From Pseudomonadota bacterium (GTDB taxonomy: Bacteria; Pseudomonadota; Alphaproteobacteria; Acetobacterales; Acetobacteraceae), in contig JAFEFW010000628.1 in NCBI GenBank assembly GCA_018240405.1, forward strand, positions 1 through 64,000: a stretch of 64,000 nucleotides of DNA, given 5' to 3'. The first letter of the stretch is position 1, and the number at the start of each line of letters is the position of its first letter. Made by a program: the position numbers and the translations under genes. This document shows, in pieces, positions 35,732 to 53,099 of this stretch. Below the pieces are notes generated by a model, which saw only the letters and a program-made list of their open reading frames with translations, did not search any database and was not told where the DNA came from.

Positions 35732-36874
35732 TCAGGCCGGGGCGAAGAGCCGCTCATCGCTGGCGTTTGACTGCTGGACCTCGGGATCGATCTCGCCTTG
35801 GAACGCGGCATCCCGCTGCAGCACCGGAGCGACCTTCTCAGCGAACAGTCGCATGTTCAGTTCCGCAAGATGGTGCGGCATCGAGCCGAACGAAAATTCG
35901 GTGACGAGATGATCCATGCCGGTCAGGCGACGTAGTTCGGCAACCTGCTGGATGCAGTCATCCGGCGTCCCGACCACCTGGATGCTGACGTAAAAATCCG
36001 TTGCCTTCGCGCGAAAACTTTCATCCTTCATCTTGGTATAGGTCTTCGCCAGCTTGCCGTAGGATTCGTAGCCCTTCACGGTGGACAGGTGGCCATCCGA
36101 GAAGTGGTAGTGGTTGTCGATGGAATCCCACTTTTCGCTCAGGTAGCGCGTGGCCCAGTCCCGTGCTTCCTGCCGCGTCGGGGCGCAGGCGACATTGGTC
36201 AGAATGATCGGCGGGCGCGGCGTATGGCCGACGCTGCGCACCATCTCGCGATAACGCAGCACGTCCTCGGCTGCCTTTGGCCATTCGTTCTGCATCACGA
36301 TCATCATGCCGAAGCCGAGCTTGGCCATGACCTCGGCGGATTCCGGGCTGACCGAGGAGGCGTAGAAGCGCTCCTCGGGCCGTGAGATCGGCCGCGGGCG
36401 GATCGAGGTGCGGGGAATCTTGTAGAACTGCCCGTCCCATTCGAAGCTGTCGTTCGCCAGCGCCTTGATGATCAATTGCGCAGACTCGACGAAGCGCGGA
36501 CGCGCCTCCTCCATCGGGATGCGGAACCCCTCATATTCAACGGTGGCGGCGCCACGGCCGAAGCCCATCAGGGTGCGGCCACCGCTGATGATGTCGAGCA
36601 GTGCGATCTGCTCTGCCACGCGGATCGGGTCGTGCCAGGGCAGCACGATGACGCAGGTGCCTAGCGTGATGCGCCTGGTGCGGCCGGCGTAATAGCTGAG
36701 AAGTTGCAGCGGCGCCGGCGACATGGAGTAGCCGGTAAAATGATGCTCCAGCGCAAAGAGCGAGTCGAAGCCCAGGGGCTCTGCGAGATCGCCGAGAGCC
36801 ATGTGCTCGTTGTACAGCGCCACGTCCGGACGGCCCGGTTGGGCCAGAATGCTGAGTGCCGTTCCGACTTTCAT
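35732..36874 (-). CDS. LLM class oxidoreductase at the end of the leftward operon
   Basis: A 380-residue luciferase-like TIM-barrel enzyme. EHH at 43-45 and LDIISGGRTLMGFGRG mark the family. GGGAGGAC before the ATG at 36874 gives a good ribosome site. It is the last gene of the leftward run that begins at 46723 and carries two LLMs, a FadB/J-like fusion and the Dpp transporter. The C-terminus (about 355-380) is polar and not conserved in the family. It is probably FMN- or F420-dependent; the nearby FO synthase favours F420 only by association. Confidence 0.85.
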   Translation of the reverse strand: MKVGTALSILAQPGRPDVALYNEHMALGDLAEPLGFDSLFALEHHFTGYSMSPAPLQLLSYYAGRTRRITLGTCVIVLPWHDPIRVAEQIALLDIISGGRTLMGFGRGAATVEYEGFRIPMEEARPRFVESAQLIIKALANDSFEWDGQFYKIPRTSIRPRPISRPEERFYASSVSPESAEVMAKLGFGMMIVMQNEWPKAAEDVLRYREMVRSVGHTPRPPIILTNVACAPTRQEARDWATRYLSEKWDSIDNHYHFSDGHLSTVKGYESYGKLAKTYTKMKDESFRAKATDFYVSIQVVGTPDDCIQQVAELRRLTGMDHLVTEFSFGSMPHHLAELNMRLFAEKVAPVLQRDAAFQGEIDPEVQQSNASDERLFAPA

Positions 36875-36937
36875 GAATGTCCTCCCTTCCCTGCCGGAAG
36901 GCTAACGGGAAGGGAGGGGCGTGTCACTTGCGCGACG

Positions 36938-37117
36938 TCAAGCCGATCGCGTCGGCTGCGCTGGTCCCGGCGGCTTTTCCACATTCTCGGCGCCAGCGCG
37001 CGTGCCGCCAAACTTGTCGGCGCCACCGGCGTCAGGAGCACCCGGCTTCTTGTGGTTGCCGGTATTCTGCTGATCGTCCGTGTGCTGAACGGTGGATTCC
37101 GTGTGCGGCTGTTTCAT
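36938..37117 (-). CDS. 59-residue hydrophilic small protein
   Basis: An ATG at 37117 directly preceded by AGGAGGA (6-nt spacing, near-ideal) opens a 59-codon frame. The protein is very polar (MKQPHTESTVQHTDDQQNTG at the start; Gly, Asp, Lys and Pro later) and probably unstructured. It begins 33 nt after the last dpp gene and ends 63 nt before the LLM gene, so it is part of that operon. No family recognised. It resembles small stress or stabiliser proteins only in composition. Confidence 0.6.
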   Translation of the reverse strand: MKQPHTESTVQHTDDQQNTGNHKKPGAPDAGGADKFGGTRAGAENVEKPPGPAQPTRSA

Positions 37118-37150
37118 GCCGATCCTCCTGCGGTGAGGAGGGTGAACGGC

Positions 37151-38140
37151 TCAGCCCGGCGTTGGTTCGATCAGATGGCAGGCAACCGCGTGTGCCGCAC
37201 CCCCCGGCCGCATTGCCGGTTCCTGTTGCGAGCAGACCGGCATGACGTGCGGGCAGCGCGTGTGGAAACGGCATCCCGAAGGCGGCGCGATGGCGCTGGG
37301 GATATCGCCGCTGAGCGGCGGCTTGCGCTCCGCCCCGCGCTTACGTTGTGATGGGTGCGTAATGGGCACGGATTTCAGCAGTGCCTGCGTGTAGGGATGC
37401 AGCGGCCGGGCATAGAGGTCGCGCTTTTCGGCGATCTCGACCACCTTGCCGAGATACATCACGGCGACGCGCGTGGAGATGTGCTTCACAACGCCGAGAT
37501 CATGGGCGATGAACAGATACGTCAGCCCAAGCTCCGCCTGCAGGTCCGTCAGCAGGTTGACGATCTGTGCCTGTACCGAAACATCCAACGCCGACACCGG
37601 CTCATCACACACCACGAATTTCGGGTGCAGTACCAGCGCTCGCGCAATGCCGATGCGCTGCCGCTGGCCACCGGAAAACTCGTGTGGAAAACGTTCGGCG
37701 GCCGCACGCGGCAGCCCGACCTTGTCGAGCATCTCGCCGACGGCCGACCGGGCGGCGGCAGCGCGCGTGCCGTGGATGAGCAGCGGCTCCATGATGATGT
37801 CCTCGACGGACATGCGCGGATTGAGCGCGCCAAATGGGTCCTGGAAAACGATCTGCATCGACCGGCGCACTGGCCGCAGCGCCTTGGCACCCAGCGCCGT
37901 GATGTTGCGGCCGTCGAACAGGATATCGCCGGCCGTCGAAGGCATCAGCCGGATCAGCAGCCTTCCCAGCGTGGACTTGCCGCAGCCGGATTCGCCGACG
38001 AGCCCAAGGGTTTCGCCGGCTTCGACTGACAGGTCCACGCCATCCACCGCGCGCAGCACCGTGCCGCCGCGGCTGAGCCACCCGCCAGATTCGACTTCGA
38101 AATGCTTCGTCAGCCCGACTGCCTGGACCAGTGCCGTCAT
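37151..38140 (-). CDS. dppF: peptide-type ABC transporter ATP-binding protein
   Basis: A 329-residue nucleotide-binding subunit: Walker [10 protein letters not shown], signature [10 protein letters not shown], Walker [12 protein letters not shown], and a C-terminal oligopeptide-type extension with Cys motifs ([14 protein letters not shown]) typical of DppF/OppF. Its ATG overlaps the stop of the preceding ATPase gene by 4 nt. It pairs with that ATPase to power import. Confidence 0.93.
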
Positions 38141-39111
38141 CGGCGCAGCTCCAGGGCCCTGATGCAGGCGGCGCGGTGGCCAGCGCCGAAATCGTCCAGT
38201 GGTGGCAGACCGTCGCGGCAGGCGGCGACGGCATGCTCGCAGCGATCGGAGAAACGGCAGCCCGGTGGCCGCCGGGCCGGTTCCGGCAGGTTGCCGGGAA
38301 TGGCCAGCAGACGGTCCTGCTCCTGCTCCAGCGTCGGCACACAGGCCAGCAGGCCGCTGGTGTAGGGATGCAGCGGCTCGTCGAACAGGCGGTTCACCGG
38401 CGCCTGTTCCACCACGCGGCCGGCATAGGTGACGAGTACGCGGTCGGCGGTCTCGGCGATCACGCCCATGTTATGGGTGATGATGATCACCGCCATGCCG
38501 AACTCGTCGCGCAGGTCCAGGATCAGGTCGAGAATCTGTGCCTGGATCGTCACGTCCAGGGCGGTGGTGGGCTCGTCTGCGATCAGCAGGCGCGGCCGGC
38601 AGACCAGGGCGATCGCCAGCATCACACGCTGCCGCTGCCCGCCCGATAACTGATGCGGATAATCGGTCATCCGTGTCGCGGCAGAGGGAATGCCGACCTT
38701 CTCCAGCATCTGGACCGCTCGCGCGAAGGCGTCGCGTTCGGAAATTCGCTCATGCGCCTTGATGGTTTCGATGATCTGGTCGCCGATGGTGAAGACCGGA
38801 TTCAGCGAAGTCATCGGTTCCTGAAAAACCATGGCGATTCCAGGGCCGCGCAGCCGCTGCATGGCCTTGTCGGACAGCGTCAGCAGGTCGGTCCCGTCGA
38901 AACGAATGCTGCCGCCCAGGATGCGCGCCGGCGGCATTGGCAGCAGGCCCATGATCGCCAGCGCGGTGACGCTCTTGCCGCTGCCGGACTCGCCGACGAT
39001 GCCCATGACCTCGCCGCGGTCGAGCGTGAAGGAGATGTCCTCGATCGCGGTGACTTCGCCACGTTCGGTACGGAAGGCGGTGGTAAGGTGTTCGACCGAC
39101 AGCAGGGTCAT
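38137..39111 (-). CDS. dppD: peptide-type ABC transporter ATP-binding protein
   Basis: A 324-residue ATPase: Walker A GESGSGKS, signature LSGGQRQRV, Walker [13 protein letters not shown], and the C-terminal [14 protein letters not shown] block of DppD/OppD. The ATG at 39111 sits in a 4-nt overlap with the permease stop. The frame extends upstream to 39744, but that part is antisense shadow of the permease gene and is excluded. Confidence 0.92.
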
Positions 39112-39959
39112 TGCTGAATCCTCAGCCGTGGGTCCAGCACGTCGCGCAGCCCGTCGCCCAGCAGGTTCAGGCCCAGGACGGTGATCATCAGTGCGGCGCC
39201 CGGAATGGTGATGATCCAGGGCGCGTCGGTCATGTATTGCCGTCCCTCGGCCATGATGTTGCCCCAGGTCGGGGTTGGCGGCACGGCACCAACGCCCAGG
39301 AAGGACAATGTCGCCTCGGTCAGCACGGCATAGGCGAACAGAAAAGACAGTTGCACCAGCAACGGCGCCATGGCGTTGGGCAGGATGTGGCGGCGCAGGA
39401 TGCGCCAGTCCCCTGCCCCGGCGGCGCGCGCCGCCTGCACATATTCCATTTCCCGCAGCACGATGACGGAGGACCGCACGATGCGTGCGGTGCGCGGCGT
39501 ATAGACAATCGCCAGGGCGATGATGACGTCGTTGACGGATGGTCCCAGCACGGCGGTAACGGCAATCGCCAGCAGCACGGCGGGAAACGCCATCAGCGCA
39601 TCGTTGATACGCATCAGCATGTTGTCGAGCGGCCTGAAGTAGCCGGCAATGGCGCCGATGGCGGTGCCAGCGACGGCATTGATCGCCACGACGGCGCCGC
39701 CGATGAACATGGATAGCTGTGCACCCCAGATCACCCGGGACCATAGCGAGCGGCCGAAATTGTCCGTGCCGAACACGTAGTTCATGGATGGCGGCTGGAA
39801 TTTGTTGCGCATCGACAGTTTGTTCGGGTCAACCTGCGCGATGAGCGGGGCCAGCAAAGCCGCCGCCAGGATGATGCCGAACAACGCGGCGCCGAGCAGG
39901 AACAGGCGGTGATGGAGCAGGCGGCGCAGGACACCCAGGCTTCGTCGTGGGCGGCTCAA
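39108..39959 (-). CDS. dppC: peptide-type ABC transporter permease
   Basis: A 283-residue inner-membrane permease with six helices and the EAA loop (VQAARAAGAGDWRILRRHILPN) that contacts the ATPases. The start is TTG 39959, overlapping the preceding stop by 4 nt (TTGA). The N-terminal HHRLFLLGAALFG helix and NYVFGTDNFGRSLWSR loop are typical of DppC. Confidence 0.92.
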   Translation of the reverse strand: MSRPRRSLGVLRRLLHHRLFLLGAALFGIILAAALLAPLIAQVDPNKLSMRNKFQPPSMNYVFGTDNFGRSLWSRVIWGAQLSMFIGGAVVAINAVAGTAIGAIAGYFRPLDNMLMRINDALMAFPAVLLAIAVTAVLGPSVNDVIIALAIVYTPRTARIVRSSVIVLREMEYVQAARAAGAGDWRILRRHILPNAMAPLLVQLSFLFAYAVLTEATLSFLGVGAVPPTPTWGNIMAEGRQYMTDAPWIITIPGAALMITVLGLNLLGDGLRDVLDPRLRIQQ

Positions 39960-40897
39960 TAGCGCACCCGCGGGTCCAACAGGGCGTAGCAGACGTCGAC
40001 GGCGATGTTGATCAGCACCAGCAGTGCCGTGGTGATCAGCAGGCCGCCCTGCACCATCGGATAGTCCCGGTTCAGGACCGCCTGCGTGAGCAACTGTCCA
40101 ATGCCGGGGATGGAAAATAATGTTTCGGTCACGACGGAGCCCGAGATCAGCAGGCTGACGATAATACCGATGACCGTCGTGATCGGAATCAGCGCATTGG
40201 CCAGCGCGTGGCGCAGCACCACGCGGCGCTCCGGGAGGCCCTTGGCACGCGCCGTGCGGATGTAATCCTGACGCAGCACTTCCAGCATGGTAGACCGGGT
40301 AATCCTCGCCAGCAGCCCCGTCAGCAACAGCGCCAGTGAAATCGCCGGCATGGTCGACGTCGCCAGCCAGCCGATTGGGTCGGCGGTGAACGGAATGTAT
40401 CCGCCAGTCGGCAACCAGCCGAGATGAACGGCAAACAGAATGATCATCAGCAGGCCGAGGTAGAAGTTCGGGACCGAGATGCCCAGCATGGCAAAAACCA
40501 TTGCCGCCTGGTCGATCCAGGTATTCTGCCGCAGCGCTGCGACAATGCCGCTGAGCAACCCGAACAGCAGGGTCAGCACCAGGGCGTAGCCGGACAGCGC
40601 CAGCGTGACCGGCAGGCGCTGCATGGTTGCGCTGAGCACGGGTTGTCCCAGCAGCAGCGACCGGCCGAGGTCGCCTTGCATCAGGTTCAGGTACCAGTGA
40701 CCGAGCTGCGTCAGTAATGGCTGATCAAGCCCGAGGTCGCGGCGGATGTTGGCGATCTGCTCGCCGGTTGCCGACAGCCCGGCAATGGCCGCGGCAGGAT
40801 CGCCCGGGATCATGTGGATCATCGCGAAGGTAATCAGGCTGACGATCAGCAGAATCGGGATCGATCCGACAAGCCGGCGTGCGATGACTCCTGCCAT
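39956..40897 (-). CDS. dppB: peptide-type ABC transporter permease
   Basis: A 313-residue inner-membrane permease with about six helices, the DppB N-terminus (RRLVGSIPILLIVSLITFAM) and IHMIPGDPAAA motif, and the EAA loop (YIRTARAKGLPERRVVLRHAL). The ATG at 40897 is 10 nt after the binding-protein stop. It forms the channel with the DppC-like subunit. Confidence 0.93.
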   Translation of the reverse strand: MAGVIARRLVGSIPILLIVSLITFAMIHMIPGDPAAAIAGLSATGEQIANIRRDLGLDQPLLTQLGHWYLNLMQGDLGRSLLLGQPVLSATMQRLPVTLALSGYALVLTLLFGLLSGIVAALRQNTWIDQAAMVFAMLGISVPNFYLGLLMIILFAVHLGWLPTGGYIPFTADPIGWLATSTMPAISLALLLTGLLARITRSTMLEVLRQDYIRTARAKGLPERRVVLRHALANALIPITTVIGIIVSLLISGSVVTETLFSIPGIGQLLTQAVLNRDYPMVQGGLLITTALLVLINIAVDVCYALLDPRVRY

Positions 40898-40907
40898 CAG
40901 ATTCCGG

Positions 40908-42482
40908 TCAAGGCGTCATCCAGACATTGGCCATGCGTGGGATACGAAACGGCGTGAACCCGTTCACGTTGGACCGAACCGCCTGAATCTTGGTGAAGGA
41001 GCCGAACGGCACGGCATAGACCCGGTCGAAAATGAGCTTCTGCATTCGCACAAAGGCCTGCTGACGGCCTTCCGGGGTCGGCAGCGTGTTCATGTCGTTC
41101 CACGCGGCCAGCATGTCGGGATCGTCCTTGCCGCCCTTCGGCTTGTAGGTGGCATTCGGCATGATCAGGAACTGCATAGTGGCCAGGGCGCCGAGCGCCG
41201 GCTGCGTGCCCCAGCCGGTGAAGTGGAAATTCCAGCCCTCGGTCGTGTTCTGCATCATCTGCACCGAGGTCGGCCAGTCGACGACCTTCATCTGGGCATT
41301 GATGCCGACGGCCTGTAGCTGCTGCTGCATGACCAGCGCCGAGTTGTACATCGGCGGATAGTCCTTGTTGGTCAGCAGAATGACCGGCTCGCCCTGGTAA
41401 TTGGCTTCGGCCAGGTATTTCTTCGCCAGCGCCGCATCGTGCAGGTTGTAAACGTCCTTGCCGGCGTCCGTGTAGTCGGGCTGGTTGGGATACTGGAACC
41501 CGACGTTCAACTGGTAATTGCCGTCGGACGCGGCGTCCATGATCTCATCCATGTCCAGCGCCGCCTGGATCGCCTTGCGCACCAGCAGATTGTCGGTGGG
41601 CGGCGCGGACGTGTTCGGATTGGCGATCTGCACCCACCAGTTCTTCAACGGCAGGATGGTGATTTTCTTGTCGTTCTTCAGGTCCGGCACGGATTTCGCC
41701 GGCACGTCCTCCACGCCCTGCAGCTCGCCGGTCCGCAGGCCAGCCACGCGCGCACCAGGCTCCGTAACGATCCGGAAGGTGACGGTGTTCAGGCAGGCCT
41801 GCTTGTAGCCGCCAAAGCCAGTGCGCTGATCGAAAGTGACATTCGGCTTGTAGCCGTCATAGCGCTTCAGCTTGACCGCGCTGCCCGGCACCGCCTCGAC
41901 CAGTTGGAACGGGCCAGTGCCAATCGGGTTGGTCAGCTGCTGTGCCGGGACATCACGGAATTCAGCCGGAATGATCACGATCGGAACACTGAAGGAAGAC
42001 AGCGCCTGGATGAAGGTCGGCTGCACTTTCTTCATCGTGATGACAAAGGTCTGCGGGTCTGGCGCGTCCCACCGTTGGACATTGTCCAACGTGCTGCGCT
42101 GGTTGCCCACCTTGGCATAGCGGTCGAAGGACGCAACGACATCGGCCGAAGTCATCGGCTTGCCGTTGTGGAACTGCACGCCCTGACGCAGCTTGAATGT
42201 ATAGGTCAGGCGATCCGGCGACTCGGTCATCGACTCCGCGAGTTCCAGGATCGGGCGATTGTTCTCATCGCGCGTCATCAGCGATTCGTAGATGTTCATC
42301 GCGATGTTGCGTGTCGAGATCGTCGACGACGTCATCTGGTCAAGCGTATTGATATTGGCTTCCTGCCCGAAGACGAAGTCGCCGCCCACGTTGGGGCACT
42401 TAAATGGATCGGCTGCGGCAGCCATCTGGCCGGCGGACAGTGCAGCGAGCGCCCCAAGGGCGATCGAGAGCCTACGTCGCAT
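40908..42482 (-). CDS. dppA: peptide-type ABC transporter substrate-binding protein
   Basis: A 524-residue binding protein of the DppA/OppA/NikA family (SBP_bac_5), with a 25-residue signal peptide (RLSIALGALAALSAGQMAAA). FVFGQEANINTLDQMTSS and TYTFKLRQGVQFHNGKPM are family motifs. ATG 42482 is preferred over the in-frame TTG 42491 because GGAG lies just upstream and it gives a clean signal peptide. This first gene of the dpp set follows the FadB/J-like gene by 90 nt. Such transporters carry peptides, but also nickel, opines or glutathione; here the catabolic neighbours suggest a non-peptide cargo. Confidence 0.9.
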   Translation of the reverse strand: MRRRLSIALGALAALSAGQMAAAADPFKCPNVGGDFVFGQEANINTLDQMTSSTISTRNIAMNIYESLMTRDENNRPILELAESMTESPDRLTYTFKLRQGVQFHNGKPMTSADVVASFDRYAKVGNQRSTLDNVQRWDAPDPQTFVITMKKVQPTFIQALSSFSVPIVIIPAEFRDVPAQQLTNPIGTGPFQLVEAVPGSAVKLKRYDGYKPNVTFDQRTGFGGYKQACLNTVTFRIVTEPGARVAGLRTGELQGVEDVPAKSVPDLKNDKKITILPLKNWWVQIANPNTSAPPTDNLLVRKAIQAALDMDEIMDAASDGNYQLNVGFQYPNQPDYTDAGKDVYNLHDAALAKKYLAEANYQGEPVILLTNKDYPPMYNSALVMQQQLQAVGINAQMKVVDWPTSVQMMQNTTEGWNFHFTGWGTQPALGALATMQFLIMPNATYKPKGGKDDPDMLAAWNDMNTLPTPEGRQQAFVRMQKLIFDRVYAVPFGSFTKIQAVRSNVNGFTPFRIPRMANVWMTP

Positions 42483-42572
42483 CAACTCCAACCCTTGAAA
42501 CCCGTGGGAGCGTGGCGACGCTGTCGCGGCGCGTCAAGGTGCAATCTCACGCGCCGCGACAGGTCATGCCAT

Positions 42573-44681
42573 TTACGCGAACGGGGCGGGTTTTGCCTGC
42601 CGGAATGGCGTATTCGTCTCCGCCAGTTCGCGTAATAGTTTGGATGGCGCCCAACGCTCCCCGTATTGCTGGTGCCATGCTGCGATCTGGTTGTAGACGT
42701 TCTTCACGCCGATCCCGTCCGCCCAGTACATCAGCCCGCCGCGGTAACGCGGGAAGCCGAAGCCGTGCAGCCACATGACGTCGACGTCACTCGCCCGATA
42801 GGCTTTGCCTTCCTCCAGAATGCGGCAGGCCTCGTTCACCGAGGAGAACAGCAGCCGCTGCAGGATTTCCGTGTCGGTGAAGTCCTTCTGCGGCACGCCC
42901 ATCTCGGCGGCGACCTGCTTGATGATGGCGGCGACCTCGGGATCCGGGTGCGGCGTACGGTCGCCCTTTTCATACCGGTACCAGCCGGCGCCGGTCTTCT
43001 GGCCGTAGCGGCCCATCTCCACCAGTTTGTCGGCGATCGGCAACTTCCGATAGTTCGGATTGGCGGCCGCGCGCCGCTTGCGTCCCTCGGCACCAATGTC
43101 GAGGCCGGCAAGATCGCCGACGGCGAATGGTCCCATCGGGTAGCCGAAATCGACCATCACCTTGTCAACCTGCTCCGGCAGGCAACCTTCCTCCAGCAGA
43201 ATGACCATTTCGCTGTTGAACGGCGCACGCGAGCGATTGGCGACAAAGCCGTCGGTATTGCCCGCCATCGCCGAGATCTTGCCGATCTTCCGTCCCAGCG
43301 CCATTGCCGTCATCAGCGTCTGCGGCGACGCCTCCGCCGGTCGCACCACCTCCAGCAGCTTCATGACGTTGGCGGGCGAGAAGAAGTGGGTGCCGGCGAC
43401 CTTGTCCGCCCGCTTCGTCACTGACGCCAGGTCGTCCATGTCGAGCGCCGAGGTGTTGGAGAACAGGAACGCGTCCGGCCGCATCACCTCATCCAGCTTG
43501 GCGAAGACCGGCTTTTTCACGTCCATGCGTTCGAAGACGGCTTCGACGACGACATCGCAATCCTTGATGTCGTCGTAGCCGGCCACAGGATGGATGCGCG
43601 CCAGGCGCCGTTCCATTTCCTCCTGCGCCAGGCTGCCGCGCTTGACCGATGTGGCATAGTTGGCCTTGATCCGCTCCATGCCGCGGTCGAGCGCTTCCTG
43701 CGTCGCGTCCATGATCTTCACGTCGTAGCCGAAATCGGCGAACGACATGGCGATGCCGCCGCCCATCGTGCCGGCCCCGATCACGGCCGGATCCTTGAAC
43801 TCGTAAGGCGCAACATCCTTTGGCAGATCCGGCAGTTTCGCCACCTCGCGTTCAGCGAAGAAGGCGTAGCGCAGCGCCTTGGCCTCGTCCGCGTTCTCCA
43901 GTTCCAGGAACAATTCGTTCTCGCGCCGGATGCCGGCTTCGAAGTCCATTGTGCAGGCTGCCTCGACCGCCGCGATGCAGTGATACGGTGCTGTCTGATT
44001 CCGAGCACGGCGCGCGATGGATTTCCGCATGGCGTCGAAGATGGCGGGATCGGCGGTCACGGACTTGTCGCGTACGCGCGGCAGCGGCCGAACGTCGGCC
44101 ACTTTGCGCGCATAGGCGACGGCAGCGCTGCGCAGGTCGGTGCCTTCCGGCAGCACCTCATCCAGGATTCCCAGCTTCCTTGCTTCCGGCGCCGGAACGT
44201 GCCGGCCGGAGGTGATCATTTCCAGCGCAGTCTGGGCGCCAACCAGCCGCGGCAGCCGCTGCGTGCCGCCGCCCCCCGGCAGAATGCCGATCAATACCTC
44301 CGGCAAACCCACCTTCGCGCTCGGCACCGCAATGCGGTAGTGACACCCCATCGCGTTTTCCAGCCCGCCGCCCAGTGCGTAGCCATGGATCGCCGCGACG
44401 ATGGGCTTGGGGCTGGCGTCCATCACGTCATAGGTGCGCTGGCCGATTGGCGGACGTTTCCGGTTCGTGCCGAAACCGCGGATGTCGGCGCCGGCAATGA
44501 AGCTGCGGCCGTCGCCCATCAGCACCAGGGATTTCACCGACGGATCGGCGTTGGCCTTGTTCAGGCAGTCGACAATGCCGTCCGCCACGCCCGGGCCCAG
44601 CGCGTTCACGGGCGGGTAGTTGACGATGATCAGCGCGACGTCGCCGTCCTTTTCCAGGCGGACGACCGGTGACTCTGACAT
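42573..44681 (-). CDS. FadB/FadJ-like enoyl-CoA hydratase / 3-hydroxyacyl-CoA dehydrogenase
   Basis: A 702-residue bifunctional beta-oxidation enzyme. Residues 1-190 are a crotonase domain with the oxyanion loop AGADIRGF (63-70) and both catalytic glutamates, E108 (GGGLENA) and E128 (LPEVLIG). From residue 299 a Rossmann domain (GAGTMGGG, 302-309) starts the 3-hydroxyacyl-CoA dehydrogenase, with the catalytic His in GTHFFSPANVM; two C-terminal domains follow. It can hydrate an enoyl-CoA and oxidise the product to 3-ketoacyl-CoA. AGAGGAAAT precedes the ATG. It lies between LLM genes and the dpp transporter in one leftward run; no thiolase gene is nearby. Confidence 0.92.
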   Translation of the reverse strand: MSESPVVRLEKDGDVALIIVNYPPVNALGPGVADGIVDCLNKANADPSVKSLVLMGDGRSFIAGADIRGFGTNRKRPPIGQRTYDVMDASPKPIVAAIHGYALGGGLENAMGCHYRIAVPSAKVGLPEVLIGILPGGGGTQRLPRLVGAQTALEMITSGRHVPAPEARKLGILDEVLPEGTDLRSAAVAYARKVADVRPLPRVRDKSVTADPAIFDAMRKSIARRARNQTAPYHCIAAVEAACTMDFEAGIRRENELFLELENADEAKALRYAFFAEREVAKLPDLPKDVAPYEFKDPAVIGAGTMGGGIAMSFADFGYDVKIMDATQEALDRGMERIKANYATSVKRGSLAQEEMERRLARIHPVAGYDDIKDCDVVVEAVFERMDVKKPVFAKLDEVMRPDAFLFSNTSALDMDDLASVTKRADKVAGTHFFSPANVMKLLEVVRPAEASPQTLMTAMALGRKIGKISAMAGNTDGFVANRSRAPFNSEMVILLEEGCLPEQVDKVMVDFGYPMGPFAVGDLAGLDIGAEGRKRRAAANPNYRKLPIADKLVEMGRYGQKTGAGWYRYEKGDRTPHPDPEVAAIIKQVAAEMGVPQKDFTDTEILQRLLFSSVNEACRILEEGKAYRASDVDVMWLHGFGFPRYRGGLMYWADGIGVKNVYNQIAAWHQQYGERWAPSKLLRELAETNTPFRQAKPAPFA

Positions 44682-44720
44682 GATTCTATTTCCTCTTCGT
44701 TGCGGTAGGGACGCGCCGTG

Positions 44721-45755
44721 CTACAGCACCGCCTCGGCCACCACGCGCATGACATCGGCGTTCGCGCCCTTCAGCACCATCGTGCCCACATGCCCGTCCT
44801 TTTCCATCGCCTTCCATGCCTGCAGACGGTCGCGGATGCGGTCGGCGGAGCCGACCAACGAGATGGAATCGATCAACTTGTCCGGCACCTTGCCCGCGGC
44901 TTCATTCTTCTTGCCGTCCAGATAGAGGTCCTGGATCACCTTGGCCTCGCCTTCAAATCCCATGGCGGAAACCATATCGTTGTAGAAATTCTTCGTCCGC
45001 GCGCCCATGCCGCCGATATACAGGGCGAGCTCCGGCCGGATCGCGTCGCGGCAGGCCTCCAGGTCCGGACCCATCTTTGCCCGCACGAACGGGGCGTTAT
45101 CAAAGCCCTCCATCGTCTTGCCGGATTTCTTGCGGCCCTCCAGCGTCGGGCCCGTCACCACCTGCGGCATGTCGGGGGAGAAGAAGATCGGCAGGTTGCC
45201 GTCGGCGACCTCGCCGGCCGTACGCAGGCCGGCCGGGGTGATCGACGCCATGAAGAACTGCACATCCGGGTTGCCGTGAGCGATGCTGCGCAGCGGCCGG
45301 CCAAGGCCGCTGGCGCCTGGCCCCTTGTAGGGGATGTCGTAGTGCTCGCCATGAAACTCCAGCGGCTTCTCGCGCGCCAGAACCTGCTTGATGATGGCGA
45401 TGTACTCCTTGGTCCGCTGCATCGGCTTGCCGAACGGCACGCCGTGCCAGCCCTCCACGACCTGCGGGCCTGAGGGGCCGATGCCGCAGATGAAGCGGTT
45501 GCCCGACAGCGCCTGAAGCGACAGCACGGTCATCGCCGCGCAGGCCGGCGTGCGGGCAGGCATCTGCATAATGCCTGTACCGGCCTTAATCCTCGTCGTG
45601 CGCGCCAGAATCCACGCGACCGGCGTTACCGCATCGGTGCTGTAGGCTTCGCCGGTCCAGACCTGATGGAACCCCAGCCGTTCCGCCTCCAGGACACGGT
45701 CCATGTCCAGTTTCGGGTGCGGACCGGACATGTCGATGGTCATGCCAAGTTTCAT
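44721..45755 (-). CDS. F420-dependent LLM oxidoreductase, Rv3520c-like
   Basis: A 344-residue LLM enzyme whose N-terminus (EAYSTDAVTPVAWILA, 36-51), SARTP-like loop and SGPQVVEGWHG (95-105) are close to the actinobacterial F420-dependent subfamily represented by Rv3520c. This is the best protein-level sign that F420 is used here. CAGGAG precedes the ATG at 45755. It starts 14 nt after the next LLM gene upstream and ends 39 nt before the FadB/J-like gene, so all three are cotranscribed. Confidence 0.86.
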   Translation of the reverse strand: MKLGMTIDMSGPHPKLDMDRVLEAERLGFHQVWTGEAYSTDAVTPVAWILARTTRIKAGTGIMQMPARTPACAAMTVLSLQALSGNRFICGIGPSGPQVVEGWHGVPFGKPMQRTKEYIAIIKQVLAREKPLEFHGEHYDIPYKGPGASGLGRPLRSIAHGNPDVQFFMASITPAGLRTAGEVADGNLPIFFSPDMPQVVTGPTLEGRKKSGKTMEGFDNAPFVRAKMGPDLEACRDAIRPELALYIGGMGARTKNFYNDMVSAMGFEGEAKVIQDLYLDGKKNEAAGKVPDKLIDSISLVGSADRIRDRLQAWKAMEKDGHVGTMVLKGANADVMRVVAEAVL

Positions 45756-45769
45756 GGTCGTTGCTCCTG

Positions 45770-46723
45770 TCAGCGTACTTTGGCGACGACGTCGTCGCGG
45801 AACCGCTTCATGTTATCCAGTGTGCCCTGCAGCGTCGGCGCGAACAGGCCGAAGTCGAAGGCGGTCACCCCGACCTCCTGCAGCGCCCTGATGTCCCCGG
45901 CGTAGTCGGCCGCGCCGCCGGTGAACAGCTTGCGCTGCCCATCGACGGTCCCTTTTGGTTGCGCCTCCGGATTCGACGACACGCGATAGGCCAGGCCAAC
46001 GGCGGCAGGATCGCGTCCCGCCTTCTCGGTCAGGCCGCGCAGCTTGGCGACGCCAGCCTTGAAACGGTTCAACGTGTCCATGGGGAATTGCGGGTTGGTG
46101 CCGATCGGATACCACGCATCGCCATAGGCGGCAGTACGGCGCATCGCCGGCCCGCTTTCGCCGCCCACCCAGATCGGGATCGGCTGCTGCACCGGCTTTG
46201 GCGGAAACAATACGTCCTTGAACTTGACGTATTTCCCGTCGAATTTCGGCTGGTCCGACATCCACAATTCCTTGCAGACCATCATGAATTCATCGGTGAC
46301 GGCGCCACGCTCCGCAAAGGGTAGCGCGCCGATCGCAATGAATTCCTCCTCGCACCAGCCGGCGCCGATGCCCAGGGTGATCCGGCCCTTCGACAGGAAA
46401 TCCAGTGTCGCCAGAATTTTTGCGGTCAGCACGGCGGGGCGGTGTGGCACGACCATGACCGACGTGACGATTCGCAGCTTCGTCGTCGCCGCGGCGATGA
46501 AGCTGGCGGCGGTCAACTGCTCCAGCCGGTCGGCGGCGGCACCCGAGGGAAATTCCCCCGAATCCGTGTAGGGGTACCGCGACGCGATGCTGGTTGGGAT
46601 CATCACATGATCGCTGACCGTGACGTAGTCGAAGCCCAACGCCTCGGCCTCGGTGGCGATGCGCAGCAGGCTGTCGGGGCCGATCAGTGGGCCGCTTGTC
46701 GGGGCACTGCAGCCGATCTGCAT
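45770..46723 (-). CDS. F420-dependent LLM oxidoreductase, TIGR03619-like
   Basis: A 317-residue LLM enzyme with SDH at 37-39, VVPHRPAVLTAK (91-102) and GIGAGWCEEEF (118-128), the pattern of the LLM class F420-dependent group. GGAGGAAACCC before the ATG at 46723 rejects the longer upstream frame. It is the first gene of the leftward operon and a paralogue of the rightward LLM at 46816, with shared motifs at identical positions, so the divergent pair probably arose by duplication. Confidence 0.87.
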   Translation of the reverse strand: MQIGCSAPTSGPLIGPDSLLRIATEAEALGFDYVTVSDHVMIPTSIASRYPYTDSGEFPSGAAADRLEQLTAASFIAAATTKLRIVTSVMVVPHRPAVLTAKILATLDFLSKGRITLGIGAGWCEEEFIAIGALPFAERGAVTDEFMMVCKELWMSDQPKFDGKYVKFKDVLFPPKPVQQPIPIWVGGESGPAMRRTAAYGDAWYPIGTNPQFPMDTLNRFKAGVAKLRGLTEKAGRDPAAVGLAYRVSSNPEAQPKGTVDGQRKLFTGGAADYAGDIRALQEVGVTAFDFGLFAPTLQGTLDNMKRFRDDVVAKVR

Positions 46724-46815
46724 GGGTTTCCTCCGCTTGGATTGCGTTATCAGGGCCGATAGCACACGATGCAGAGCAATCCGGCAACAGGGGCGTCCCA
46801 GGGGGATCGTAGCTG
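46724..46815. promoter_or_regulatory. divergent promoter region of the F420 locus
   Basis: Only 92 bases separate two divergent LLM genes, so promoters for both operons and any operator must lie here. AGGGGGA about 10 nt before ATG 46816 is the ribosome site of the rightward gene, and GGAGGAAA serves the leftward gene. A short TATC-N6-GATA dyad occurs near 46749-46762, a weak operator candidate. No regulator gene is adjacent. Confidence 0.5.
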
Positions 46816-47763
46816 ATGGACTTCGGTATCCATATCGGCACGCGTGGTTGCATGACCACGCGGGACAACATCATGGCCATGGCTACGGCGGCCGAGGCGC
46901 AAGGCTACGCCATCATCGGTGTGGCCGACCACCTGATCGTACCGGACCACACATCTGTTCGCTATCCGTACACAGCGGACGGTGTTTGGCCGGGTGCGCC
47001 AACCGGTGAATGTTTCGATGCCATCGCCACGCTGAGCTTTCTCGCCGGCTTCACGCAGAAGGTGAAGCTGCTAACCTCTGTACTGGTGGTGCCGCACCGT
47101 CCGGCGGTGCTGACGGCAAAGCTGCTCACCACCGCTGACATTCTGTCGGGCGGACGGGTGATCGCCGGCGTCGGCACGGGCTGGATGAAGGAGGAGTTTG
47201 CTGCACTGCAGACCCCACCGTTTGAGGCGCGCGGCGCCGTCACCGACGAGTACATCGCCGCCTGGAAGGCGCTGTGGACGCAGGACAACCCGTCCGCCGA
47301 CGGCCAGCATGTGCAGTTCAGCAACGTGGTGTACCGGCCGCGCCCGGCGAAGGCGCCGCCAATCTGGGTCGGCGGTGAGAGCGCCCCTGCCCTGCGCCGC
47401 ACCGCCAGGTTCGGCGACGCGTGGTATCCGGTGTCGAACAACGCCCATATCCTGCTGAACACACCAGCCAAGCTGAAGGCGGGGATTGACCGGTTGCACC
47501 AGGCGGCAGAAAAGATCGGCCGTGACCCGGCGTCGATCGACATCGCCTATGTCTGGTTCATGCCGCCGAACTGGACCGCACGCACGAATGAAGACGGCAG
47601 CCGCCGCCTGTTCACCGGCAGTTCGGACGATATGCTGGCCGACGCTGTCGCCTTCCGTGACGTCGGCGTGAAGCACCTGATTGTCTATCTGCAGCAACCG
47701 ACGATCGAAAAGACCCTGGAATTGCAACAGCGATTCGCCGAGGACGTGGTAAGCAAGGCATGA
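46816..47763 (+). CDS. F420-dependent LLM oxidoreductase
   Basis: A 315-residue LLM enzyme. ADH at 37-39, VVPHRPAVLTAK at 91-102 and GVGTGWMKEEF at 118-128 place it in the same F420-dependent group as the divergent paralogue. Its TGA stop overlaps the ATG of the FO synthase gene (ATGA), so enzyme and cofactor synthesis are translationally coupled. This linkage argues that the enzyme uses F420 (or FO), not FMN. Confidence 0.88.
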   Translation: MDFGIHIGTRGCMTTRDNIMAMATAAEAQGYAIIGVADHLIVPDHTSVRYPYTADGVWPGAPTGECFDAIATLSFLAGFTQKVKLLTSVLVVPHRPAVLTAKLLTTADILSGGRVIAGVGTGWMKEEFAALQTPPFEARGAVTDEYIAAWKALWTQDNPSADGQHVQFSNVVYRPRPAKAPPIWVGGESAPALRRTARFGDAWYPVSNNAHILLNTPAKLKAGIDRLHQAAEKIGRDPASIDIAYVWFMPPNWTARTNEDGSRRLFTGSSDDMLADAVAFRDVGVKHLIVYLQQPTIEKTLELQQRFAEDVVSKA

Positions 47764-50093
47764 TTGAAGACGCATCGCTTGAAGACCTGATGGCGCAGGC
47801 CGCTGCGAAGCGGGATGCGCTGTTCGGGCGCAATATCTCCTACTCGCGGAAGGTGTTCATTCCGCTGACGAAGCTGTGTCGTGACGTCTGTCACTACTGC
47901 ACCTTTGCAGAGCGGCCGCGCGCCGGGCATGCGGCGTATCTGTCAGCCGAGGAAGTGCTGGCGATCGCGCGCGCCGGGGAAGCCGCCGGCTGCACTGAGG
48001 CGCTTTTCACGCTCGGCGATAAGCCCGAACTTCGATACCGCGCAGCGCGCGAGGAATTGGATGCGCTGGGCCAGGACAGCACGATCAGCTACCTGCGCGA
48101 TATGTGCGCACTGGTTTTGAAGGAAACCAGCCTGCTGCCGCACGTGAACCCCGGTGTGATGACGCGTGAGGACATCGCCAGCCTTCGACCCGTATCGGCC
48201 AGCGCCGGCGTGATGCTGGAATCCACCAGCGAACGGCTGTGCCACCAGGGCGGCCCGCATTACGGATCACCGGACAAACATCCGGCGGTGCGACTGGACA
48301 CGCTGCGGCTGGCCGGCGAACTGGCGGTCCCCTTCACCACCGGCATCCTGATCGGCATTGGCGAAACGCGTCGCGAGCGCCTGGATGCGCTGGAGGCTAT
48401 CCGCGACCTGCATCTGCAATACGGGCACATCCAGGAAGTCATCGTTCAGAATTTCCGAGCGAAACCGTCCACCAAGATGGCGGACGGCGACGAACCCGAT
48501 CTGGACGACCTGTGCTGGACCATCGCCGCAGCACGCCTGATCCTGCCGGATGACGTGCATGTCCAGGCGCCGCCGAATCTCTCACCGGGCGTCTACCAGA
48601 AGCTGATCAACGCCGGAATCGATGACTGGGGCGGCGTGTCGCCGGTGACGCCGGATCACGTGAATCCGGAAGCGCCGTGGCCGGAACTCGATGCCCTGGC
48701 ACGACGGACGGCCGAAATGGGTAAGATCCTCGTCGCCCGGCTGCCGGTCTACCCGGCATGGATCGCGGCGCCAGATCGATGGCTGGACAAGAAGGTCGCC
48801 CCGCGCGTGCTGCAAAACGCCGACGCTGAAGGCTGGGCGCGTGACGATGCCTGGGCGCCGGGCCTGACCTTCGCGCCGAAGCCGCGTGCAACATTGTTGA
48901 GCGAGGCCGATCCGGCCGTGGAACGCATCATCGGGCGCGCAATGGAGGGGCGGCGGCTGGAGGAGGCGGAGATCGTGCGTCTGTTCGCCGCGCGCGACGC
49001 CGACTACGACCGGATCCTGACAGCGGCCGACGATTTGCGGCGCGCGACGTCAGGCGAGGTCATCCGCTACGTCGTCAACCGCAACATAAACTACACGAAT
49101 ATCTGTTACTACCGCTGCAAGTTCTGCGCCTTCTCCAAGGGCAAGACGCATGAGGCGTTGCGCGGCACGCCATACGACCTGGACATGCAGGAGATTGTGC
49201 GCCGCTCAGAGGAAGCATGGGAACGCGGGGCGACCGAGGTCTGCCTGCAGGGCGGCATCCACCCCGACTATACCGGCGAAACATATATTTCGATCTGCAA
49301 GGCGATCAAAGCCGCGGTTCCGGGGATGCACATTCACGCCTTCTCGCCGCTGGAGGTGTTTCAAGGCGCGGCAACGCTGGGCGTATCGATCGCCGAACTC
49401 CTGTCGCGTCTGAAGGAGGCGGGTCTCGGAACCCTACCCGGCACGGCCGCCGAAATCCTCGACGACGAAATTCGCGCGATCATTTGCCCGGACAAGATCA
49501 ACACGGCGCAGTGGGTCGAGGTCATCGGGACGGCACACAGGCTTGGCCTGCGCACCACGTCAACGATCATGTATGGCCATGTGGAGGGACCGCTGAACTG
49601 GGCGCGCCACCTGCTGGTGTTGCGCGACCTGCAGGCGGAAACCGGCGGCATCACCGAGTTCGTTCCGCTGCCGTTTGTGCACATGGAAGCGCCAATGTAC
49701 CTGCGCGGCCTGGCTCGCAAGGGACCGACATTGCGTGAGGCTATCCTGATGCACGCCGTGGCCAGGCTGGTGCTGCATCCGCTGATCACCAACATCCAGA
49801 CATCCTGGGTGAAGATGGGTCCCGAAGGCGCCGCGATGTGCCTGAACGCGGGGGCCAACGACTTGGGCGGAACGCTGATGAATGAAAGCATCTCCCGCGC
49901 CGCCGGCACACAGCATGGCCAGGAGTTTCCGCCGGAGGAAATGGAAAGACTGATCCATTCGATTGGACGGGTGCCGTCGCTGCGCGACACGACCTATGGC
50001 TCGGTGGGCAACGAACGGCGGATCAAATCGTTCAATGCACCCGAGTTGGCCCCGGTTGTGCAGACACCGCCGAAGCGGGTGGCGGCGGAGTAA
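47760..50093 (+). CDS. fbiC: FO synthase FbiC (fused CofG-CofH)
   Basis: A 777-residue fusion of two radical-SAM enzymes. The N-terminal CofG half has C40-x3-C44-x2-C47 (LCRDVCHYCTF); the C-terminal CofH half has C449-x3-C453-x2-C456 (ICYYRCKFCAF). Together they join tyrosine and a flavin-pathway uracil to give 7,8-didemethyl-8-hydroxy-5-deazariboflavin (FO), the chromophore of coenzyme F420. All six cluster Cys are present. The length is slightly below the actinobacterial fusion (about 850). Its ATG overlaps the LLM stop by 4 nt. The genes finishing F420 (CofC/FbiD, CofD/FbiA, CofE/FbiB) are not in this window. Confidence 0.95.
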   Translation: MIEDASLEDLMAQAAAKRDALFGRNISYSRKVFIPLTKLCRDVCHYCTFAERPRAGHAAYLSAEEVLAIARAGEAAGCTEALFTLGDKPELRYRAAREELDALGQDSTISYLRDMCALVLKETSLLPHVNPGVMTREDIASLRPVSASAGVMLESTSERLCHQGGPHYGSPDKHPAVRLDTLRLAGELAVPFTTGILIGIGETRRERLDALEAIRDLHLQYGHIQEVIVQNFRAKPSTKMADGDEPDLDDLCWTIAAARLILPDDVHVQAPPNLSPGVYQKLINAGIDDWGGVSPVTPDHVNPEAPWPELDALARRTAEMGKILVARLPVYPAWIAAPDRWLDKKVAPRVLQNADAEGWARDDAWAPGLTFAPKPRATLLSEADPAVERIIGRAMEGRRLEEAEIVRLFAARDADYDRILTAADDLRRATSGEVIRYVVNRNINYTNICYYRCKFCAFSKGKTHEALRGTPYDLDMQEIVRRSEEAWERGATEVCLQGGIHPDYTGETYISICKAIKAAVPGMHIHAFSPLEVFQGAATLGVSIAELLSRLKEAGLGTLPGTAAEILDDEIRAIICPDKINTAQWVEVIGTAHRLGLRTTSTIMYGHVEGPLNWARHLLVLRDLQAETGGITEFVPLPFVHMEAPMYLRGLARKGPTLREAILMHAVARLVLHPLITNIQTSWVKMGPEGAAMCLNAGANDLGGTLMNESISRAAGTQHGQEFPPEEMERLIHSIGRVPSLRDTTYGSVGNERRIKSFNAPELAPVVQTPPKRVAAE

Positions 50094-51548: not shown

Positions 51549-53099
51549 ATGCTGATGACGCGCCAGGAGATTTCACAGGACGCGGCGGTCGACCGGTTGA
51601 CGACCGCCATCCTCGACCGTGATCAGCCGCGCACCGCGGACCTGTTCTTCCAGCTTGTGAAGAAGGACGGGCGCAGCGTGGGGGATGCGCTCAGCGTGGT
51701 CACCGCGGCCGAGGCGCCCTTCGTCCAGGTGCCCAACCACATCAACATCCGCGACGGGCAGATCACGCTGATCAACAATGACCACACGATCCTGGGCCTG
51801 CGGACGTCGACATCACTCATGCCCTATGTGCCAGACACGTACAAGATGCTGCCCCTGCTGCAAAGCGTCTGGTACGTGCCCGCCGGGCTGGATATCTGGA
51901 ACCAGTTGCTGGCGAAGTATCCCGGCCGCTATGCGACGATGAAGGGACTGAATGTTCCGCCACCGGATTACGGGCCTGTGGTGTGGCAGGAAGACCAGGA
52001 GCCGATCGTCGAGAATGCGCCGGTCGCGGAACGTCTTCATAACTACATGGTTGCAACGATCAGCGGCGATGTGAAACGGTCCTACGGCCTGTTCCTCGGC
52101 CTGGCGGCCGATCCGGCCCTGCGGCCGCAGCTGCGTGATACGCTGCTGTTCCTGGGGCTGATCGATGTGCAGGACACCGTTATCGGCCGCAAGGCGCGCA
52201 ACACCGGCCATAAGGCGCTACGGGCCAGAGCGGTAGTCGACCTTGCCGATTATATCGGCTGGGAAAAGGCACACGGCGTGTTCTACACCGGGGTGCCTGA
52301 CATGGCCACCGGGCCGCTCTACTACTCGGCCTATGATGCCGCCTGTGTCACGATCACCGAAGCCTTTCCCGATGCTGGCAAGAGCCTGAAGCAGACGAAC
52401 AAGACGCCGCTGTCACCCGAGGAAGTGGAAAACTTCATCACACTTCTGATGGTGGGTGAGACCGACTCGGTCTGGACCGCATTGACCGACTATTTGAAGG
52501 CCGGCAAGTCGATCCGCAGCCTGGGTGACACGATCCAGATTGCCGCTGCGGAACTGATTCTGCGGACGACAGTCCCGCGCAAATTCACCGACGCGCAGCA
52601 TCCGTTCGACTACTGCAACACTGGCAACTACTGGCTGCGCGGCACGGACAATCCATACCAAGCCCGCATCCTGTATCTGATGGCAAACTTCGTGAACGAC
52701 GCCGCCCGTTCTGGCCAGCTTTATCAATCCGTGGTCGAACAGGAATGCGCCGGTTTCGATCCTGGCCGCCGGTCAAACGACGATCTGTTGAAGCTGACCG
52801 ACGAGGCGATTCTGGCCTTTGATATCTCGCTCAGCACGGCTGTGGCCAACGCCTATATCCAGGGCGGTGGCGACCAGACCCGCTACATGCAGGACGTTGC
52901 CATCACTGCCTGCAAGTTCCAGGATGATCCGCACAACCAGAAGATCAGCCACTCCACGTTCGAGGAGTTTGAGCACAACACGACCCATTTGCGGCACAAG
53001 CTGCTGCTGGCGAGTGTGCGGCTGCTGGCCGGTTGGCCGAAGATGCCGGGTGAGCGGGACTGTTACGCGCGCTTCATGAAGGAATGGATCCGCCATTGA
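51549..53099 (+). CDS. unrecognised 516-residue protein coupled to a CoA transferase
   Basis: A 516-residue soluble protein with no signal peptide or membrane helix. It looks alpha-helical throughout, with His-rich patches such as HNYMVATISG, GHKALRARAVVDLADYIGW and EHNTTHLRHKLLL that could bind metal or a cofactor. I do not recognise it; a distant questin-oxidase-like or HEAT-like fold is conceivable but unproven. GGGGAGAG precedes the ATG at 51549. Its 3' end overlaps the CaiB-type gene, so it is probably part of the same pathway, perhaps acting on the CoA-activated or free acid. Confidence 0.75.
   Translation: MLMTRQEISQDAAVDRLTTAILDRDQPRTADLFFQLVKKDGRSVGDALSVVTAAEAPFVQVPNHINIRDGQITLINNDHTILGLRTSTSLMPYVPDTYKMLPLLQSVWYVPAGLDIWNQLLAKYPGRYATMKGLNVPPPDYGPVVWQEDQEPIVENAPVAERLHNYMVATISGDVKRSYGLFLGLAADPALRPQLRDTLLFLGLIDVQDTVIGRKARNTGHKALRARAVVDLADYIGWEKAHGVFYTGVPDMATGPLYYSAYDAACVTITEAFPDAGKSLKQTNKTPLSPEEVENFITLLMVGETDSVWTALTDYLKAGKSIRSLGDTIQIAAAELILRTTVPRKFTDAQHPFDYCNTGNYWLRGTDNPYQARILYLMANFVNDAARSGQLYQSVVEQECAGFDPGRRSNDDLLKLTDEAILAFDISLSTAVANAYIQGGGDQTRYMQDVAITACKFQDDPHNQKISHSTFEEFEHNTTHLRHKLLLASVRLLAGWPKMPGERDCYARFMKEWIRH

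Follow-up and report, generated by a model that had tools for sequence, protein, structure and literature searches.

A locus of eleven genes and one open reading frame (ORF) of 59 amino acids, spanning positions 35,732 to 50,093 of a 64,000-nucleotide (nt) stretch of contig JAFEFW010000628.1 (the window), places genes for the metabolism of cofactor F420 beside a gene for a FadB/FadJ-like β-oxidation protein (fadJ) and a complete set of Dpp-type importer genes (Table 1). We interpret the locus, with a probability of roughly 0.5, as two older modules, an F420 island and a β-oxidation module, that were fused in this particular lineage and would act on a carboxylic acid. This reading draws on gene order, family membership, conserved hydratase residues, co-occurrence with the FO synthase FbiC and recurrence in relatives. 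The peptide-type importer beside the F420 and fadJ genes looks like a lineage-specific addition. The host genome (7.37 Mb in 681 contigs, 97.57% complete) is placed near Rhodopila in the Acetobacteraceae, its FbiC being 84% identical to that of Rhodopila globiformis DSM 161, which bears out the alphaproteobacterial origin guessed in the first-pass annotation of the window. One genome of the same genus (G099, locus L105) was present among the family genomes compared; G, L and C numbers are our handles for genomes, loci and contigs.

A fundamental question is whether the host can make F420 at all. FbiC passes the NCBIfam cut-offs for the bifunctional enzyme (PRK09234, 1160 bits against 1018) and for its CofG and CofH halves (TIGR03550 and TIGR03551), and both halves contain the radical S-adenosylmethionine motif CX3CX2C (CRDVCHYC and CYYRCKFC). 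The gene is present in single copy, as the sole place in the genome above the CofH cut-off. A separate contig of 3635 bases (C291) carries cofE, cofD and cofC in that order, with cofE cut by the contig start, and the products score 190.1 (CofE, cut-off 180.65), 302.7 (CofD, cut-off 257.45) and 112.4 bits (CofC, cut-off 105). Because a genuine FbiC is thus accompanied by CofE, CofD and CofC on another contig, F420 synthesis by the host is very likely. FO antennae in DNA photolyases are known in other bacteria, and an FbiC that makes FO only for that purpose, unrelated to the luciferase-like genes, would be one alternative; the presence of cofC, cofD and cofE in this genome, and beside fbiC in many relatives, makes it highly improbable.

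Which of the four luciferase-like proteins of the locus (LLM_A to LLM_D) might use this cofactor? LLM_C passes its NCBIfam model, named for Rv3520c, at 352.1 bits (cut-off 335) and is nearest to Mer by sequence. In a structural model with a mean predicted local distance difference test (pLDDT) score of 82.7, with weak loops (pLDDT below 50) at residues 97-108 and 150-157, its nine best Protein Data Bank (PDB) matches are all F420 enzymes (Mer/Adf), ahead of flavin mononucleotide (FMN) enzymes, and LLM_C accordingly looks like an F420 enzyme on both sequence and modeled fold. LLM_B and LLM_A both pass TIGR03619, a subfamily named for F420 (234.3 and 230.8 bits, cut-off 166.9); the LLM_B model, weak at residues 41-47, leaves its probable cofactor type ambiguous, and the LLM_A-fbiC gene order recurs in L006, L008, L010, L011, L107-L109 and L155. 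LLM_D misses every NCBIfam cut-off (TIGR03619, 116.9 against 166.9 bits), has a bacterial-type luciferase as its best PDB match, and looks FMN-type. The earlier description of an F420-type locus is upheld by the FbiC and CofC/D/E genes and by LLM_C and LLM_B, which follow FbiC across the family, and is not upheld by LLM_D.

The distribution of these genes was examined in one draw of 150 Acetobacteraceae genomes, with Fisher tests by genome and by genus. FbiC was found in 40 of the 150, and 34 of these matches reach at least 70% identity. LLM_C, counted at an E-value of 1e-60 or better, was found in 34 genomes, 32 of which have FbiC (p 8e-23; by genus 2e-15), and LLM_B likewise in 34, 33 of which have FbiC (p 4e-25; by genus 9e-17), although its best match reaches only about 50% identity in some. 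Among the 110 FbiC-free genomes LLM_B occurs in one and LLM_C in two (G091, in 1110 contigs, and G144, 85% complete), and neither occurs in the six genomes whose FbiC is distant (58-66%). G144, which belongs to the same genus as G077, has matches to LLM_B, LLM_C and LLM_D and no FbiC match. The fadJ clade, counted at 65% identity or more, is present in 30 genomes, 25 of which carry FbiC, compared with 15 of the other 120 (p 1.6e-13; by genus 2e-9). The dppA clade provides an internal contrast, since it comes from the same locus yet shows no clear link to FbiC: it is found at about 61% identity or more in 24 genomes, 11 with FbiC (p 0.04; by genus 0.16). G004, a genome with no FbiC match, contains a 68% fragment that is not counted here; its inclusion would bring the set to 25 and weaken the association.

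The neighborhood of fbiC in relatives separates the common parts of the locus from the rare ones. The best 80 of at least 587 contig stretches that encode an FbiC relative were inspected, with identity thresholds of at least 50% for LLM_B and 60% for LLM_A and fadJ, and the resulting counts are lower bounds because flanks end at contig ends. LLM_B lies within the fetched flanks in 46 of the 80 loci, LLM_C in 26 and LLM_A in four, while cofD is near fbiC in 42, cofE in 40, cofC in 36 and FGD in 27; in the first 48 loci (L005-L052), titled as alphaproteobacterial groups or Proteobacteria, the corresponding fractions are 45/48 for LLM_B, 24/48 for LLM_C and 27/48 for FGD. An island in which LLM_C-LLM_B are divergent to fbiC is common in relatives, is found in Acetobacteraceae, Reyranella and Bradyrhizobium, and in many cases has cofC-cofD-cofE-FGD added. 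By comparison, fadJ is near fbiC in only 3/80 loci, dppA in 1/80, and dppB and LLM_D in 0/80. These counts show that the F420 core is common, and that the full combination described in the first-pass annotation is rare. As a separate observation, FbiC of Chloroflexota (L053, L054, L056, L058 and others) is 62-66% identical to that of the window, as near as some alphaproteobacterial FbiC proteins, which suggests an old gene transfer.

The second module centers on the fadJ-like gene, whose product combines crotonase and 3-hydroxyacyl-coenzyme A (CoA) dehydrogenase domains. The two glutamates of the hydratase and the HFFSPA stretch of the dehydrogenase are conserved in alignments to 6ium and 2x58, and the protein misses the FadB and FadJ equivalog cut-offs (468.6 against 870 and 467.9 against 869 bits). 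Its clade is sharply set off, with 30 genomes at 65-100% identity and the next best match at 51%. In seven of the 24 genomes that have both genes, representing six genera (G000, G014, G129, G051, G057, G002 and G007), fadJ lies within 5 kb of LLM_C, separated by 15 to about 3950 nt and mostly in the order LLM_B-LLM_C-fadJ; the same proximity is seen in R. globiformis L005 and L006. Twenty fadJ neighborhoods of relatives were fetched, in which neighboring genes were called with a rough GC3 script that leaves some frames over-long. LLM_C is present in six of them (L107-L110, L112 and L124), and an acyl-CoA dehydrogenase cluster stands beside fadJ in seven (L106, L108, L109, L111, L112, L113 and L116). 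The most informative is L109 (G051), where LLM_B-LLM_C-fadJ is accompanied by an acyl-CoA dehydrogenase, two Liv-type permeases, two ATPases, an AMP-binding enzyme (AMP-ligase) and Liv-type binding proteins; L107 and L112 have most of them in common with L109, the Liv-type importers included. Elsewhere the company differs: L118 has two acyl-CoA dehydrogenases, an enoyl-CoA hydratase, a hydroxyacid-dehydrogenase-like gene, a permease, an SBP_bac_1 binding protein and a TOBE-type ATPase, clusters that largely recur in L114 and L117, and L116 and L119 carry Dpp-type genes just 25-57% like those of the window. Because the L109 core carries an acyl-CoA dehydrogenase, an importer and an AMP-ligase, CoA-linked catabolism with F420 enzymes has gene-context support independent of the window. 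The first-pass proposal of F420-dependent redox steps joined to CoA-linked oxidation is thus supported by gene context, with fadJ tracking FbiC and recurring near LLM_C.

Several observations weigh against the reading of two fused modules, and those that concern the cofactor can be taken first. The fold of LLM_B is nearest to 3rao, an uncharacterized luciferase-like protein, and to the FMN monooxygenases SfnG and MsuD, with Mer first appearing at rank 16. LLM_D was included as an FMN-type contrast that should show no association with FbiC, and the contrast broke down, for LLM_D tracks FbiC too (24 of 25 genomes, 13 of the 14 at 64% identity or more; p 4e-16, by genus 7e-12). Either LLM_D depends on F420 metabolism or genomes rich in luciferase-like proteins tend to have FbiC, and because LLM_D behaves in this way, co-occurrence partly marks such genomes and is by itself no proof of F420 use; moreover, collapsing to genera corrects only in part for shared ancestry. 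No FGD or Fno equivalog lies above cut-off anywhere in the genome (209.9 against 420 and 58.4 against 149.8 bits), a negative that is limited by contig C291 being broken at cofE: FGD directly precedes cofE in relatives such as L156, C291 begins inside cofE, and absence of FGD cannot be claimed for this reason. An alternative hypothesis is that this is an FMN monooxygenase locus, in which FMNH2-dependent luciferase-like proteins feed β-oxidation, a logic proposed for SAR202 in the part of that study consulted (PMC5395668), and fbiC is a bystander. The LLM_B fold and the luciferase-like LLM_D would fit this hypothesis. However, LLM_C is nearest to Mer/Adf by both sequence and fold, LLM_B and LLM_C are nearly absent without FbiC (1/110 and 2/110), and the scanned genes of the locus include no flavin reductase, so that we regard it as improbable.

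The luciferase-like family is large in this genome, where 54 places match the FGD model at an E-value of 0.001 or better, all below its cut-off. One family member on contig C626 (L133:1138-2472) exceeds the TIGR03557 cut-off (233.3 against 210.4 bits), has a twin-arginine-like signal that just misses the TAT_signal cut-off (21.7 against 22.7 bits), and is nearest to the F420-dependent hydroxymycolic acid dehydrogenase model (313.7 bits, cut-off 470); it is possibly an exported F420 enzyme in a proteobacterium.

Further points against a fusion of two modules concern the link between F420 and fadJ. FbiC was not found in five of the 30 fadJ genomes, 17 of the 24 genomes with both genes show no LLM_C within 5 kb of fadJ (several of these assemblies being fragmented), 14 of the 20 fetched fadJ neighborhoods have no LLM_C, and a Pfam scan of 34 of the ORFs in the window detected no acyl-CoA dehydrogenase, AMP-ligase or thiolase. 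Could the genes then be neighbors without a shared pathway? On this account the island would have a general role in reduction or detoxification, with fadJ and dpp as separate catabolic genes that landed alongside. It fits the distance between fadJ and LLM_C in those 17 genomes, the fadJ orthologues of L113-L123, which have no nearby LLM_B or LLM_C match and sit in some cases in other acyl-CoA operons, and the existence of dpp as a separate unit elsewhere. It fits poorly with the proximity of LLM_C and fadJ in six genera, mostly in one order, and with the tracking of FbiC by fadJ, and we consider it somewhat unlikely.

The comparison weakens the importer as a fixed part of the locus. The dpp set of the window is complete as a Dpp/Opp type, with a family 5 solute-binding protein (SBP), two permeases and two ATPases as in the standard five-subunit importers; none of the four subunits scanned reached a substrate-specific NCBIfam cut-off (DppA, 56.3 against 1005 bits), and the name Dpp is a family label only. 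In relatives the genes form an operon of their own, in which dppC is 75-88% identical to that of the window and dppB orthologues (70-82%) always stand beside a dppA orthologue in the genomes where they are found. Where a genome holds both the fadJ and dppA clades, the window and G099 excepted, the two are on separate contigs or, in G033 and G119, on one contig at a distance of over 30 kb. The dppA regions of 15 of the 24 genomes (L138-L152) were fetched, their genes were called with the rough GC3 script and representatives of the neighboring clusters were scanned: a DMFA2_C gene, formamidase-like, is beside dppA in 11 of the 15 and divergent in eight, AstE-like genes are present in eight and Ldh_2 genes in six. 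This is perhaps an amide uptake unit of Acetobacteraceae composed of dppABCDF with DMFA2_C, AstE-like and Ldh_2 genes.

The Rhodopila group presents a different arrangement. In the three genomes of this group whose fadJ flank was seen (window, L005 and L105) dppA is next to fadJ, the orthologue of R. globiformis L005 and G099 being 75% identical. DNA of L005 and L105 can be aligned with the window across fadJ and dppA; dppBCDF is absent there, and the alignment picks up again at the small ORF. A dppA orthologue in a genome with no dppB match at an E-value of 1e-90 is found in G051, G099 and G139, and the G051 case (L150), where dppA lies beside a DMFA2_C gene without dppBCDF, adds a second orphan binding protein. 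Two histories would fit the Rhodopila group, retention of dppBCDF in the window lineage with loss in two relatives, or gain by the window lineage. On either of them the locus can persist without an intact Dpp importer.

One may still ask whether Dpp is the true supplier of substrate, importing a peptide- or amide-like compound whose acyl part would be released and passed to FadJ. The gene order of the window, dppA beside fadJ in all three Rhodopila-group loci, and the DMFA2_C and AstE-like neighbors of dpp orthologues described above are consistent with such a role. Arguing against it are the missing dppBCDF beside dppA in two of those three genomes together with the undetected dppB of G099, the Liv-type importers beside the same core in L107, L109 and L112, and the lack of any amide hydrolase seen in the window locus; we hold this to be improbable. 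Dpp as the defining importer was rejected as a constant part of the locus on the grounds of its separate operon elsewhere, its weak tracking of FbiC and the absence of dppBCDF beside dppA in relatives. The earlier statement that the locus imports its compound through Dpp is accordingly right as to a complete dppABCDF being present and weak as to its role.

How could two such modules work together? In the scheme that follows we infer that LLM_C and LLM_B use F420 and that F420 and FadJ share a pathway, and we likewise infer the sequence of reactions and the kind of substrate. In the F420 island, fbiC would make FO, from which CofC/D/E would complete F420 for use by LLM_B and LLM_C, encoded divergently. 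The β-oxidation module would have the FadB/J-type hydratase/dehydrogenase as its constant member and an importer that varies by genus (Liv-type, SBP_bac_1/TOBE-type or Dpp-type). A carboxylic acid would be imported and converted to a CoA thioester, by the AMP-ligase in relatives and here perhaps by the CoA-transferase encoded at 53084. LLM_C, perhaps with LLM_B, would then carry out an F420- or F420H2-dependent hydride transfer on a C-C double bond, alcohol or ketone that blocks β-oxidation, and the FadJ-like protein would hydrate and oxidize the product. The substrate is most likely a carboxylic acid, by analogy, because this is the most economical guess given PimC/PimD-like dehydrogenases beside fadJ in relatives and ABC transporters for dicarboxylic and fatty acids elsewhere. 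A bolder version, which we consider somewhat unlikely, is F420-assisted β-oxidation in Acetobacteraceae. Mer-like and Rv2161c-like hydride transferases would use F420/F420H2 on an acyl chain or a CoA thioester, and a particular carboxylic acid could not be degraded without this reaction; their genes would be transcribed together with that of the FadJ-type enzyme, and the importer would be exchangeable. If this version is true, F420 would for the first time have a physiological role assigned to it in an alphaproteobacterium.

Known systems resemble the locus in parts. Sections of a review (PMC8498797) describe F420 clusters that combine fbiC, cofC/D/E, FGD and luciferase-like hydride transferases and report that alphaproteobacterial F420 producers are predicted to encode FGD. 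Like these clusters, the locus has predicted F420-dependent hydride transferases of the luciferase-like type close to FbiC; unlike them, it has cofC/D/E away from fbiC, and fadJ and dpp are attached. In Rhodopseudomonas palustris, as reported in part of PMC3223731, the pim operon (pimFABCDE) is adjoined by an ABC transporter with two binding proteins for fatty and dicarboxylic acids, and ABC transporters of beta-proteobacteria are assigned in part of PMC12543098 to dicarboxylic acids of C7 and longer. The likeness lies in an importer beside β-oxidation genes and in dehydrogenases beside fadJ in relatives that match the PimD (L113, 423 bits; L116, 414 bits) and PimC (L116, 519 bits) models; these miss the cut-offs (652.7 for PimD, 623.85 for PimC), and no PimC or PimD was found among the window ORFs scanned. 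We know of no F420 genes at pim. Mer and Adf are the nearest solved structures to LLM_C, Mer by sequence and both by fold, but are only about 17-22% identical to it, and no methanopterin pathway is indicated. LLM_C shares its family model with Rv3520c of the mycobacterial cholesterol gene region, and no steroid genes are seen at the window locus; Rv3520c is listed among cholesterol genes, with no assay of it in the portions consulted (PMC6429209, PMC12855090).

The gene list, strands, overlaps and divergent center given in the first-pass annotation were confirmed and are collected in Table 1.

Table 1 Features of the locus and one gene outside the span first annotated (window positions)
Feature	Position	Strand	Basis or remark
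LLM_D, bacterial-luciferase-like monooxygenase	35732-36874	-	luciferase-like, best PDB match 8cbb
Small 59-amino-acid ORF, no family	36938-37117	-	related stretches in L005, L105
dppF-like ATPase	37151-38140	-	Pfam ABC_tran + oligo_HPY
dppD-like ATPase	38137-39111	-	Pfam ABC_tran + oligo_HPY
dppC-like permease	39108-39959	-	Pfam BPD_transp_1 + OppC_N
dppB-like permease	39956-40897	-	Pfam BPD_transp_1 + BPD_transp_1_N
dppA-like solute-binding protein, SBP family 5 (start uncertain)	40908-42491	-	Pfam SBP_bac_5
fadJ-like (FadB/FadJ enoyl-CoA hydratase / 3-hydroxyacyl-CoA dehydrogenase)	42573-44681	-	Pfam ECH_1, 3HCDH_N, 3HCDH
LLM_C, Mer-like luciferase-like oxidoreductase	44721-45755	-	TIGR03559 (Rv3520c family)
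LLM_B, luciferase-like oxidoreductase	45770-46723	-	TIGR03619
Divergent intergenic region LLM_B/LLM_A, 92 nt	46724-46815	.	coordinates of flanking starts
LLM_A, luciferase-like oxidoreductase	46816-47763	+	TIGR03619; overlaps fbiC by 4 nt
fbiC, bifunctional FO synthase (CofG + CofH halves)	47760-50093	+	NCBIfam PRK09234
CoA-transferase family III	53084-54286	+	Pfam CoA_transf_3, 390.8 bits

Four overlaps of 4 nt join dppF/dppD, dppD/dppC, dppC/dppB and LLM_A/fbiC, and the remaining gaps on the leftward strand are 63, 33, 10, 81, 39 and 14 nt. The start chosen for LLM_B, which sets the width of the divergent center, agrees with orthologue ORFs that start at window residue 15, and a promoter scan found no sigma-70-like site in the center. 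A 535-residue ORF at 38137-39744 was rejected as an over-long dppD frame, its ABC domain beginning only at residue 235 and the methionine at 39111 opening MTLLSVEH. The small ORF has no match in Pfam and is related to stretches in R. globiformis L005 (80% over 50 residues) and L105 (72% over 32 and 69% over 26 residues). In G099 a 90% identical LLM_D orthologue lies downstream of dppA, and a two-domain NIPSNAP gene (L105:13208-13873) stands between them, with no such gene at that position in the window. To the right of the locus, a 516-residue ORF (51549-53099) overlaps the CoA-transferase gene; it has no Pfam or NCBIfam match and a PDB match at chance level only, and a further FbiC locus, L012, has a 33% identical relative of it roughly 6 kb away from the LLM_C gene there. 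Near the left end, a stand-alone gene resembling class II lysyl-tRNA synthetase (32929-33966) is presumably EpmA-like.

In the parts of the open-licence literature searched, no description of a linkage between fadJ and F420 was found. The locus is of interest because it hints at a role for F420 where none is established. A fadJ clade that tracks FbiC and sits near F420 enzymes names a testable pathway, CoA-linked degradation of a carboxylic acid, and the named strain R. globiformis DSM 161 has a compact version of the locus, dppA-fadJ-LLM_C-LLM_B divergent to fbiC (L005).

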